DNA from: Terriglobia bacterium | GTDB taxonomy: Bacteria > Acidobacteriota > Terriglobia > Terriglobales > Acidobacteriaceae | Direction: 5' to 3' | NCBI GenBank assembly: GCA_020073525.1 | Contig: JAIQFA010000010.1 | Location: forward strand, 1 to 64,000 | DNA: 64,000 nt | Shown here: one piece after another, positions 57,512-59,902 of the stretch | Position numbering within the stretch: position 1 is the first letter of the stretch | Layout of the letters: each line of letters opens with the position of its first letter | Position numbers and translations under genes: made by a program | The notes under the pieces: model-generated | What the model was told of the DNA's origin: nothing | Seen by the model: the letters and a program-made list of their open reading frames with translations, nothing else | Databases searched by the model: none

Positions 57512-57584
57512 GTTCGCAAAGAAGACGCGTGAAATAAGAAAGGCACATCGCCGCAAAGCCACTTCCGCCCCCTCCATACGGGTG

Positions 57585-57590
57585 TACAAT
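57585..57590 (+). promoter_or_regulatory. Candidate -10 element for the HPF-sigma gene
   Basis: TACAAT at 57585-57590 with upstream TG resembles an extended -10 about 57 bases before the ATG. No clear -35. A small GC-rich hairpin (cggggaccttcccccg) sits in the leader at about 57616. Confidence 0.3.
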
Positions 57591-57646
57591 AATTTTGTTA
57601 GGACCGCAGCTTCACGGGGACCTTCCCCCGCGTTCGAGGCGCGAAA

Positions 57647-58687
57647 ATGAACGTTCACGTCAGTTACAGGGTCCACAAAACTCCCGACATCGAAAAAGAA
57701 ATCAGCCACCAGATCGAGAAAATCCAGAAGCGCCTTCACGTCTTCCGGCCCGAACTGGTTCATCTGAAAGCCGTTGTCGAGCAGAATACGGCGCGCGAGG
57801 GAACCCTCGTCTCTCTGAATCTACGCATACCATCCGTTCAACTGGCCGTGCAGGAGAAAGCCCCGAGCGCGACCGCGGCCATCAAGTCGGCGTTTGACGA
57901 ACTCATCCAGCAGATTGGGCGGCATAAAGAACTGCTGCGCTCCAGCCACAAATGGCGGCGCTGGCGCGGAGGGCCACAGGAATCGCCCGAGCCCGGCGTT
58001 CCATTCGAGCAGACGCTGGCAGCGGTACTGCCGCCGACCATTTCCGCCGATGACATTGGTTCGTATGTGAATGCGAATCTTTCGCGGCTCGAGCGTTTTG
58101 TGGACCGCGAACTCTACTTCCGCCGCTCCGACGAAGAACTTCCAGAAGACGGCCTTTCCACCTCCGAGGTCGTAAACGAAGTGATCGCCCGGGCTCTTGG
58201 CGACAGCGACCGCCCGGAGAAAATGTCGCTGGAACCGTGGTTGTATCACCTTGCCCTGCAGGCCATGAACGAGATGACGACGCGCCTTCAGGAGCTGGAG
58301 TCTTCCGTCCATTTGGAAGACAGTCGCCGCCGGCAAAATGTGGAAGCCTCGGACGAAGCTGGGCTGCAGTTTCATCAGCCCGACGAGGGTTGGACGCGCG
58401 AAAGCGCGATCCCCGATCGGCGCGTCTCCACTCCTGAACAAGCCGCCTACTCCGACGAAGTCATTGCTCTGGTGCAAGCCGCACTTCACGGCGCCGACCG
58501 CACCGACCGCGAAGCCTTTCTCCTCTACGGCATAGAAGGTTTCTCCCTCACTGAAATTGCCGCCATTACCGGACGGCATCCGGAGGCCGTGCGCGAGTCC
58601 GTGCAGCGGGCACGCGACTGTGTGCGCAGCGCGCCTTCGATCGCGAGCGAATTTCACAGCGAACTCTTAGTCAAAACTCGAATCTAA
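57647..58687 (+). CDS. HPF/RaiA (S30AE) domain fused to sigma-70-like regions 2 and 4
   Basis: The 346-residue protein has two parts. Residues 1-105 read as a ribosome hibernation factor domain: MNVHVSYRVHKTPDIEKEIS, LVSLNLRIPSVQLAVQEKAP and basic KWRRWRGGP. After a Pro-rich linker, residues 145-215 contain LSTSEVVNEVIARAL and MSLEPWLYHLALQAMNEMTT, like sigma region 2. Residues 262-326 contain STPEQAAYSDEVIALVQAAL and GIEGFSLTEIAAITGRHPEA with VRESVQRARDCVRS, a region-4 helix-turn-helix. Fusing a ribosome-binding domain to transcription-factor-like regions is rare. It is followed 39 bases later by a baeRF gene. Both halves appear intact; whether region 4 binds DNA is unknown. Confidence 0.85.
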   Translation: MNVHVSYRVHKTPDIEKEISHQIEKIQKRLHVFRPELVHLKAVVEQNTAREGTLVSLNLRIPSVQLAVQEKAPSATAAIKSAFDELIQQIGRHKELLRSSHKWRRWRGGPQESPEPGVPFEQTLAAVLPPTISADDIGSYVNANLSRLERFVDRELYFRRSDEELPEDGLSTSEVVNEVIARALGDSDRPEKMSLEPWLYHLALQAMNEMTTRLQELESSVHLEDSRRRQNVEASDEAGLQFHQPDEGWTRESAIPDRRVSTPEQAAYSDEVIALVQAALHGADRTDREAFLLYGIEGFSLTEIAAITGRHPEAVRESVQRARDCVRSAPSIASEFHSELLVKTRI

Positions 58688-58726
58688 TAACCAGTACCAG
58701 CATCTCAGCATTGAAGGAGCGTCGAG

Positions 58727-59902
58727 ATGATGACCCGGGACGAAATCCGTGAATTGGCAGCTTTTCAAGCGGACGAAACCAAAGGGGCGTGTGCCCTGAG
58801 TTTTTACTTTCAACCTGATCCTCCCCAGGATCGTTCCCATCGCCACGAAGCAATTGTCGCCAAGGATGTCGTCAAGCAGGCGCTGAAAAGCGCTGCGGCT
58901 GTCGGCAAGAATGGTTTTCTTCACGCGGACCTGGATCGGGTTCTCGATCTGGCCACGAACCTCCGCGGCCACGCCCGGGGGAGGGCAGTTTTCGCCTGCG
59001 CGGCTCAGAATTTCTGGAAAGAGTACGAATTGCCTCCGCAACTCGGAGGCACGCACATTTATCTGCAGTCCCAGTTTCAGTTGAAGCCATTGGCCGCCTT
59101 GCTGGGAGCGCAACCCGCACTTTGCGTTGCCATGGTTGACCGGCAGCGAGCCCGTCTCTTCGATCTTCGCCTGGACGACTTGCGCGAACGCGGAGCGATT
59201 GTCCACATGCTCTCACGCAATGGATCGAGCTATGGTTACAACGGCTACGAAGGCGGCCATGCTGAGCGCCGCGTGTCGGAAGAAGCGCTGCAACACTTCA
59301 AGGCTGTCTCAGAACGGCTGCGGAACGATTTCGAGAGAGGCATTTGGGAGCGGCTCATTGTGGGGTGCCAGGATGCGAACTGGTCCGAGTTCGAGTCCCA
59401 CCTTCACCCTGATGTCAAAAAGCGCCTGATTGGCCGCTTCTCCGCCGATGTGGCCAGCGTTTCGAATGAAGAAATTCGCGATCACGCTGCTGCCGAACTC
59501 AACCGCTGGATCGCAGAACGAGGTTCCAAGAAGGCAAGCGAAGCGCTGGATTTCGCTAAGTCCAACGGGCGCGGTGTCAGCGGCCTCCGCCGCGTGCTGC
59601 AAGCCCTGGAAACTGGGGAAGTGCAGAGTATCTTCCTCAGCGAAAACTTTGCTGCTCGGGTTGTGCAGTGCCCCAACTGCGGCCACCTTGACGCCCATCT
59701 GGTCACGTCCTGCGTCGCCTGCGGACACGCCACTCGTGAACTGAACGACGTCTGCGATGCCATTATCCCCATCGCCATCCGGCGCGATATTGAATTGTTC
59801 TATCTGAAGGACCACGCCGACCTGGATCGCGCCGGGAACATCGCGGCGCTTCTGCGCTTCCGCTCCGATCAGACCACTGGACAGATCGCAGCCGCGTCAT
59901 AG
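58727..59902 (+). CDS. baeRF-type (bacterial eRF1-like) peptide-release/rescue factor candidate
   Basis: The 391-residue protein shows a three-domain layout like archaeo-eukaryotic release factors. Residues 134-151 read VAMVDRQRARLFDLRLDD. The catalytic-loop position has YEGGHAERR (Gly176-Gly177-His178) instead of eRF1 GGQ. Residues 195-305 contain RGVSGLRRVLQALETGEVQS, an L7Ae-like third domain. A zinc ribbon C315xxC318...C329xxC332 is present. This resembles baeRF family 10-like proteins. AAGGAG is 7 bases before ATG 58727. Co-transcribed with the HPF-sigma fusion, it suggests ribosome rescue or hibernation; activity is not proven. Confidence 0.8.
   Translation: MMTRDEIRELAAFQADETKGACALSFYFQPDPPQDRSHRHEAIVAKDVVKQALKSAAAVGKNGFLHADLDRVLDLATNLRGHARGRAVFACAAQNFWKEYELPPQLGGTHIYLQSQFQLKPLAALLGAQPALCVAMVDRQRARLFDLRLDDLRERGAIVHMLSRNGSSYGYNGYEGGHAERRVSEEALQHFKAVSERLRNDFERGIWERLIVGCQDANWSEFESHLHPDVKKRLIGRFSADVASVSNEEIRDHAAAELNRWIAERGSKKASEALDFAKSNGRGVSGLRRVLQALETGEVQSIFLSENFAARVVQCPNCGHLDAHLVTSCVACGHATRELNDVCDAIIPIAIRRDIELFYLKDHADLDRAGNIAALLRFRSDQTTGQIAAAS

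Follow-up and report, generated by a model that had tools for sequence, protein, structure and literature searches.

An HPF/RaiA domain fused to a sigma70-ECF-like domain, encoded next to a Balon-type gene in a Terriglobia bacterium: a possible link between ribosome hibernation and transcription

Introduction

The gene for the hibernation factor Balon most often neighbours that for RaiA, and its operons can also include alternative sigma70 genes (PMC10901736); the adjacency of HPF and baeRF genes has also been published (PMC6514570). An HPF domain joined to a CBS module is found in the archaeal protein HibA (PMC13324472), and in E. coli transcription and translation are silenced by separate factors, Rsd and RMF/HPF (PMC6904343). 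These and the other papers cited here are represented by excerpts, to which statements about them refer. The locus described here lies in a 64,000-nucleotide stretch (the window) of a Terriglobia bacterium (Acidobacteriota; contig JAIQFA010000010.1, positions 1 to 64,000), and encodes a single protein with an HPF/RaiA domain and a half resembling extracytoplasmic function (ECF) sigma factors, followed by a Balon-type gene. A Pfam match of this second half also recalls PhyR, whose degenerate sigma-like domain binds the anti-sigma factor NepR.

No HPF-sigma fusion was recognised in literature searches of open-licence papers, as judged from the search listings. Such a protein bears on how bacteria shut down and restart transcription and translation together, and a single molecule combining an HPF head with a sigma-like tail would allow a physical link between the two to be tested.

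The fusion protein and its domains

A preliminary description of the window, read by eye, had placed an HPF domain and sigma regions in one unbroken frame, 39 bp upstream of a second gene that is preceded by a strong ribosome site. Frame, coordinates, spacing and ribosome site (AAGGAG) are all as claimed, and the domain reading has been borne out by profile searches and by AlphaFold with Foldseek (Table 1). Pfam S30AE (PF02482) matches residues 9-96 at 30.7 bits (cutoff 23.7), and Sigma70_r4_2 (PF08281) matches residues 286-324 at 31.8 bits (cutoff 25.7), while the NCBIfam model TIGR02937 (sigma70-ECF) aligns across residues 146-327 with E=3e-10, its 40.0 bits lying just below the cutoff of 42.9. 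Sigma region 2 taken alone has no Pfam match in the window fusion; it is called from the TIGR02937 span, from alignment with 20 ECF sigma factors of the window's own genome, and from Foldseek alignments to ECF sigma factors of about 200 columns. PhyR_sigma-like (PF22233) also matches, at 27.3 bits (cutoff 27) and below the score of Sigma70_r4_2; no receiver domain is matched by Pfam in this protein. The NCBIfam equivalog model yfiA scores 21.8 bits, under its cutoff of 40.9, and a Pfam search extended to E 10 finds no S30AE C-terminal dimerisation domain of long HPF in the fusion.

The AlphaFold model, based on 29 aligned fusions, has a mean pLDDT of 72 and a pTM of 0.43, with a confident HPF domain, a disordered linker at residues 103-130, helical sigma-like parts, and low confidence at about 220-261. 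Searched against the PDB with Foldseek, its top matches are HPF/RaiA structures (4hei_A, 2rql and 8rd8_D; target TM 0.84-0.86), the last being RaiA solved together with Balon. ECF sigma factors are matched as well, namely SigW-RsiW (5wur), RpoE-NepR (5uxx), AlgU, SigH and sigma-E; all of these matches have E values of 1e-3 or better, with lower target TM for the sigma factors (0.28-0.64). When PDB sequences were searched with a profile of 27 diverse fusions, sigma factors (best 4.8e-14) and also HPFs (best 1.4e-8) were recovered. That the protein joins an HPF/RaiA (S30AE) domain to a sigma70-ECF-like domain can be taken as nearly certain.

Table 1. Features of the locus (coordinates are those of the window)
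Feature	Coordinates	Strand	Details and basis
Conserved GGGTGTACAAT box, -10-like	57580..57590	+	alignment of 26 upstream regions
Conserved leader, with GAGG ribosome site at 57636-57639	57591..57646	+	alignments
HPF/RaiA-sigma-like fusion gene	57647..58687	+	346 aa, ATG start; HMM, fold, conservation
HPF/RaiA (S30AE) domain, residues 1-105	57647..57961	+	Pfam PF02482, 30.7 bits; Foldseek
Flexible linker, residues 106-131	57962..58039	+	AlphaFold pLDDT <50 at 103-130
Sigma region-2-like helical domain, residues 132-220	58040..58306	+	TIGR02937 span; ECF sigma alignment
Acidic linker, residues 221-264, with HQPDE inside (QPDE at 58376-58387)	58307..58438	+	QPD[DE] count
Sigma region-4-like domain, residues 265-330	58439..58636	+	PF08281, 31.8 bits; PF22233, 27.3 bits
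Balon-type (baeRF family 10) gene	58727..59902	+	391 aa; HMM, fold, alignment
baeRF family 10 core domain, residues 119-256	59081..59494	+	PF18854, 76.3 bits
Zinc-ribbon cysteines C315, C318, C329, C332	59669..59722	+	invariant in 12 homologues

The sigma-like half compared with ECF sigma factors

For this comparison 41 fusions were aligned with 20 ECF sigma factors, chosen from the 52 PF08281 matches in the window's own genome. The fusion set comprised 16 loci of the window's family, a sister family and one further genome (G056), 20 loci from across the phylum, and five of six plasmid fusions scanned with Pfam, L117 being dropped as a near copy of L115 (G, L, C and f designate genomes, loci, contigs and families, respectively). 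The signature glutamine of region 2.2, which has a role in core binding, is present in all 20 ECF sigma factors and in none of the 41 fusions, where it is replaced by Asp (34) or Asn (7). The sigma half is strongly acidic, with a mean net charge of -17.2 (range -25 to -8) against +0.6 (-11 to +10) for the ECF sigma factors. Mean charge falls from +3.75 to +0.46 in regions 2.3-2.4 (-1 in the window protein) and from +2.45 to +0.12 in the 4.2 recognition helix (+2 in the window protein), the latter drop arising because acidic residues have been gained and not because Lys and Arg have been lost. Basic residues are nonetheless scarcer at particular positions of this helix: Lys or Arg occupies position 316 in 14/41 fusions against 18/20 ECF sigma factors, 318 in 1/41 against 10/20, and 321 in 8/41 against 19/20. 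The linker motif QPD[DE] is shared by 33 of the 41 fusions and occurs in no ECF sigma factor of the set. Five positions of the sigma fold (W198, R288, L293, E303 and A305) are retained in the same alignment. PhyR_sigma-like outscores Sigma70_r4_2 in four of 16 divergent fusions (L096, L108, L061 and L114), and rises above its own cutoff only in L096.

As judged from these residue patterns, most promoter-reading features are lost from the sigma half of the fusion family, the loss being less clear within the genus of the window. At somewhat better than even confidence, this half would not be a classical promoter-reading sigma factor.

The HPF half

The HPF half was compared with 18 other S30AE proteins, 17 from separate loci together with the short HPF of G059 described below, a basic position being one with Lys, Arg or His in at least 70% of them. 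The fusions keep six of the 18 basic positions so defined (8, 25, 28, 41, 92 and 94), each being basic in 73-95% of fusions, and the net charge of the domain is +5.8 in the fusions against +4.1 in the other proteins. Ribosome binding by this half is plausible, and it is likely that the HPF half works on ribosomes.

The Balon-type partner gene

The second gene had been described as release-factor-like, with GGH in place of GGQ and a zinc ribbon. All of these features are present, and the label can be sharpened to a Balon-type hibernation factor: the protein belongs to baeRF family 10 (PF18854, 76.3 bits, cutoff 27.1) and resembles the NCBIfam hibernation-factor models for Balon, Rv2629 and MSMEG_1130, at scores far below the equivalog cutoffs (44.1 of 480, 42.8 of 320 and 37.4 of 330 bits). 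Its structural model (mean pLDDT 72) finds the Msmeg1130 Balon structure 8v9l_z as best Foldseek match, with E 2.4e-19 and TM 0.68/0.70. GGH lies at residues 176-178 and there is no GGQ motif in the protein; among 12 aligned homologues GGH occurs in two and AGH in ten, so that only G177 and H178 are invariant, while the four cysteines C315, C318, C329 and C332 of the zinc ribbon are conserved in all 12.

Distribution and linkage in Acidobacteriota

A close survey covered 61 genomes, of which 37 are from the window's family, 14 from the sister family and ten from elsewhere. The fusion was found in 30 of the 37 same-family genomes, three times as contig-end pieces (G016, G021 and G023), in 13 of the 14 sister-family genomes at about 30% identity, and in one of the ten others (G056). 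Balon is encoded in 24 of the 37 same-family genomes and follows the fusion directly in every one of them, with gaps of 15-78 bp at the 23 loci measured; in G006 its frame is broken in two. In G056, from another family, a Balon gene starts 111 bp after the fusion and is cut by the contig end. No Balon match was found in six of the 30 same-family fusion genomes (G004, G015, G016, G022, G028 and G033, the G016 locus being cut by a contig end), nor in the sister family, including all 13 of its fusion genomes. The preliminary description had envisaged a coupled two-gene system and had tied it to homologues keeping the downstream gene. The adjacency holds within the window's family, but the pairing is not obligatory, and because these 6/30 and 13/13 fusion genomes lack a Balon match, a strict fusion-plus-Balon system fails, while the fusion itself stands.

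Two further loci concern the same gene pair. At G059:C684:10200-12300 (L162), the gene directly upstream of Balon encodes a 122-aa HPF that belongs to the same HPF subfamily as the fusion but has no sigma half; it matches the profile of that subfamily with E 3.7e-31, and could represent either the pre-fusion state or a loss. At G001:C1:35114-36704, a second Balon gene adjoins a C-terminal fusion fragment.

In a sample of the whole phylum, a full-length match covering both halves was found in 22 of 396 genomes, spread over ten families, a count that may be too low because only five first-look candidates per genome were scored. Each of the 20 loci examined (in 19 of the 22 genomes) is one open reading frame matching both halves, L108 lacking the middle stretch. 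Balon lies downstream at five of these 20 loci, four times within about 55 bp and once, in a distant family (L094), after 313 bp. When ten divergent fusions were searched with Pfam, S30AE was over its cutoff in nine and Sigma70_r4_2 in six.

In the sister family, 13 genomes have an S30AE match and in each of them the fusion alone is matched, the fourteenth having none; in G049 of this family there are two matches, both fusion-type. The fusion is likewise the only match in all five f70 genomes searched, the G392 copy being cut by a contig end, so that in some genomes the fusion is the sole S30AE protein detected. A further S30AE protein is present in others, among them the window's own genome and many of the same genus. 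These statements speak of the model, and undetected HPFs elsewhere are possible, because the model misses the HPF half of the fusions in G320, G312, G189 and L095 and of the second copy in G430.

The fusion is under purifying selection along its full length. Among 19 same-genus loci (L001-L019), the median pairwise ratio of non-synonymous to synonymous substitution (dN/dS) is 0.085-0.113 in each of five regions of the gene, both linkers included, with 128 to 166 of 171 pairs computable depending on the region; these values are rough because the median dS is near 1.

At Balon-less loci, the ten neighbour genes scanned comprise four of metallo-beta-lactamase fold, five LysM/SLT transglycosylases and one convergent gene of serine beta-lactamase fold. 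At two f69 loci (L095:4501-4839 and L109:4524-4922), the gene after the fusion encodes a STAS domain of the anti-anti-sigma type, and in L096, L099 and L102 (families f70, f62 and f81) it encodes a class I/II aminotransferase.

The upstream leader

The box upstream of the fusion (GGTGTA[CAG]AAT) is strongly conserved, with GTA.AAT invariant in 26/26 aligned upstream regions; a consensus scan of the region upstream gave no complete sigma-70 promoter. Positions 57580-57646 contain a CGGGG...CCCCG palindrome. A conserved leader hairpin found no support, RNAalifold giving 0 consensus pairs and Rfam no match.

Plasmid relatives and tLST orf11

Fusion homologues were found by tblastn in 25 plasmid records, 17 of them over at least 80% of the query, with identities of 23-31% among the 20 matches listed; the hosts include Burkholderia, Paraburkholderia, Cupriavidus, Shinella, Paracoccus, Sphingomonas, Roseomonas, Methylorubrum and others. 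In Methylorubrum extorquens AM1 the homologue (L116) is carried by the megaplasmid. Balon had no match on plasmids. Of six plasmid fusions searched with Pfam, two pass the S30AE cutoff and two a sigma-4 cutoff, the rest lying below. Neighbours were viewed in eight of the 25 records, two of which are nearly without annotation. Where annotated, they vary by locus and include Hsp20, GroES/GroEL, DnaK, FtsH, Clp-type AAA, HdeD, thioredoxin and a cation:proton antiporter, and at five annotated proteobacterial loci the homologues lie among Hsp20, GroEL, DnaK, FtsH, Clp-type AAA and HdeD genes. The proteobacterial copies group together in a single clade (support 96/96) when 44 rows are placed in a tree.

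A search with the Shinella protein yields 289 matching plasmid records (271 of them covering at least 80% of its length), among them Klebsiella (126), Enterobacter (74), Acinetobacter (31) and Escherichia (17). The four neighbourhoods viewed among these are all islands of the transmissible locus of stress tolerance (tLST) type, in which the homologue (L142-L145:9001-10146, annotated as 'hypothetical protein') follows hdeD-GI in 4/4 and precedes trx-GI in 3/4, the position of orf11 in the tLST1 gene order (PMC8290217). The four homologues retain only a weak sigma-4 trace in Pfam (E 0.002-0.03) and have no S30AE match at E up to 1. Profile alignment by hhalign of 27 fusions, with no orf11 among them, against four near-identical orf11 rows (Neff 1) nonetheless gave a probability of 99.8, E 2.6e-29 and 340 columns, and the orf11 homologues keep the linker FYQPDD and the segment DVVDEA. 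On this evidence, the tLST orf11 found on plasmids of Acinetobacter and enteric bacteria appears to belong, as a highly diverged member, to the fusion family, which offers it an identity at the level of domains.

According to PMC8290217, orf11 shares less than 30% identity with every protein whose function is known, and one tLST-type island has a 'sigma 24 like' gene among its hallmarks. When each of the 13 functional genes was deleted in turn from a tLST-bearing K-12 strain, seven proved necessary for heat or chlorine resistance; orf11 was not one of the seven, and lipid oxidation was unchanged (PMC8407380). The LHR2 copy of orf11 carries a disrupting insertion (PMC5383660).

A possible mechanism and its rivals

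The best reading overall, offered tentatively and at a little under even confidence, is that the operon encodes a ribosome-hibernation pair in which the sigma half of the fusion is a sigma mimic. Flexible linkers join an HPF-fold domain to a sigma-fold domain, and the Balon-type gene is placed close behind on the same strand. From what is known of the families, the HPF domain would be expected to dock in the mRNA/tRNA channel of the 30S subunit when ribosomes are idle, and the Balon homologue to fill the ribosomal A site. The sigma half is read as a protein-binding mimic, and not as a promoter reader, because the region 2.2 glutamine is replaced, the half is strongly acidic and the QPD[DE] motif is shared. 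It would presumably no longer read promoters, and would bind a sigma partner, either an anti-sigma factor or RNA polymerase, such that ribosome occupancy could change which sigma or polymerase is available. Further points in favour of the overall reading are the profile and fold matches of both halves, the low dN/dS in every region, the fusion as sole S30AE match in the sister family and f70, the Balon gene downstream in many genomes, the loss of basic residues at positions 316, 318 and 321, the scores of PhyR_sigma-like in four divergent fusions, and the Hsp20, GroEL, DnaK, FtsH, Clp-type AAA and HdeD genes around proteobacterial homologues.

Coupling of the fusion to transcription through a sigma partner is itself regarded as possible, with rather less than even confidence. 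More doubtful is the extension to a widespread coupler family, in which the HPF head would report idle ribosomes and the sigma-mimic tail would capture or free an anti-sigma factor or RNA polymerase, distributed through Acidobacteriota and Proteobacteria, paired with Balon in some lineages, and carried on islands into enteric and environmental bacteria as orf11.

Several observations weigh against the sigma-mimic reading. The fusion often stands without Balon, and no anti-sigma gene was found among the fusion neighbours scanned. In the HPF half, 12 of the 18 basic positions fall below 70% in the fusions, three positions being gained, and the C-terminal helix is less basic than in other S30AE proteins (+4.2 against +6.6). 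QPD[DE] is absent from all five sister-family members of the set and from L063, L108 and L019. In the 4.2 helix the number of Lys and Arg is alike (2.76 in fusions, 3.05 in ECF sigma factors, p=0.42), and position 323 is basic more often in fusions (31/41) than in ECF sigma factors (12/20). Fusions of the window's own genus are less eroded in region 4.2, with a recognition helix of +1 to +2, and the window protein retains R316, R321 and R323. Finally, the comparison with ECF sigma factors treats related sequences as independent.

The strongest competitor to the sigma-mimic reading, although unlikely, is that the sigma-derived half is purely ribosomal and has no role in transcription; it might, for instance, substitute for the C-terminal domain of long HPF in ribosome dimerisation or shielding. 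The lack of an S30AE C-terminal domain in the fusion would suit such a role, as would the lack of any other S30AE match in the sister family and f70, the short HPF of the same subfamily that adjoins Balon in G059 without a sigma half, and the drift of the sigma half away from DNA binding. Set against it, the order and the fold of the two sigma regions are preserved at identities of about 25-30%, and a separate S30AE protein is present as well in many genomes with the fusion.

Less probable still is a working ECF-type sigma factor with the HPF domain as its sensor; ribosome binding would sequester the protein, which when free would direct polymerase to stress promoters. In its favour are the span of TIGR02937 over regions 2-4, the five retained positions of the sigma fold, the several arginines of the own-genus recognition helix, the unchanged family-wide number of Lys and Arg in that helix, and the public annotation of relatives as sigma-70, sigma-28 or FliA. 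Against it stand the complete replacement of the region 2.2 glutamine, the fall in charge of regions 2.3-2.4, of the 4.2 helix and of the sigma half as a whole, and the still greater degeneration of the four tLST homologues scanned. That the fusion is a decaying gene, or an artefact of assembly or gene prediction, is refuted by these data and has a negligible chance of being correct, since its conservation across many genomes argues against chance or misassembly and its median dN/dS is about 0.1.

Comparison with known systems

The fusion shares with the HPF/RaiA/YfiA factors the fold, length and six of 18 basic positions of their S30AE domain, but its sequence is divergent and the other 12 positions are not kept; relative to long HPF, a sigma-like domain stands in place of the C-terminal domain. 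HibA similarly joins an HPF domain to a regulatory-type module, whereas in the fusion the partner module is sigma-like and the hosts are bacteria; the excerpt of PMC13324472 mentions no sigma fusion. ECF sigma factors with fused regulatory domains, as described in the excerpted part of PMC8999054, show the sigma 2-4 fold with an extra domain but no HPF extension, and the window fusion has lost sigma signature residues.

With PhyR, the fusion shares the PhyR_sigma-like Pfam match, just above its cutoff, but no receiver domain is matched in it. The orf11 protein of tLST islands resembles the window fusion in its full-length profile match and in keeping the FYQPDD linker and DVVDEA segment; it differs in being highly diverged, with an S30AE domain that Pfam does not detect.

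The second gene belongs to the Balon/baeRF systems, where HPF and sigma factors are separate genes in the excerpts at hand (PMC10901736, PMC6514570), while in the window they form one protein. Closest in concept are Rsd and RMF/HPF of E. coli, which share with the proposed mechanism the idea of jointly silencing transcription and translation; there, the separate proteins are coordinated by gene regulation, whereas here the two kinds of domain are fused in a single chain.

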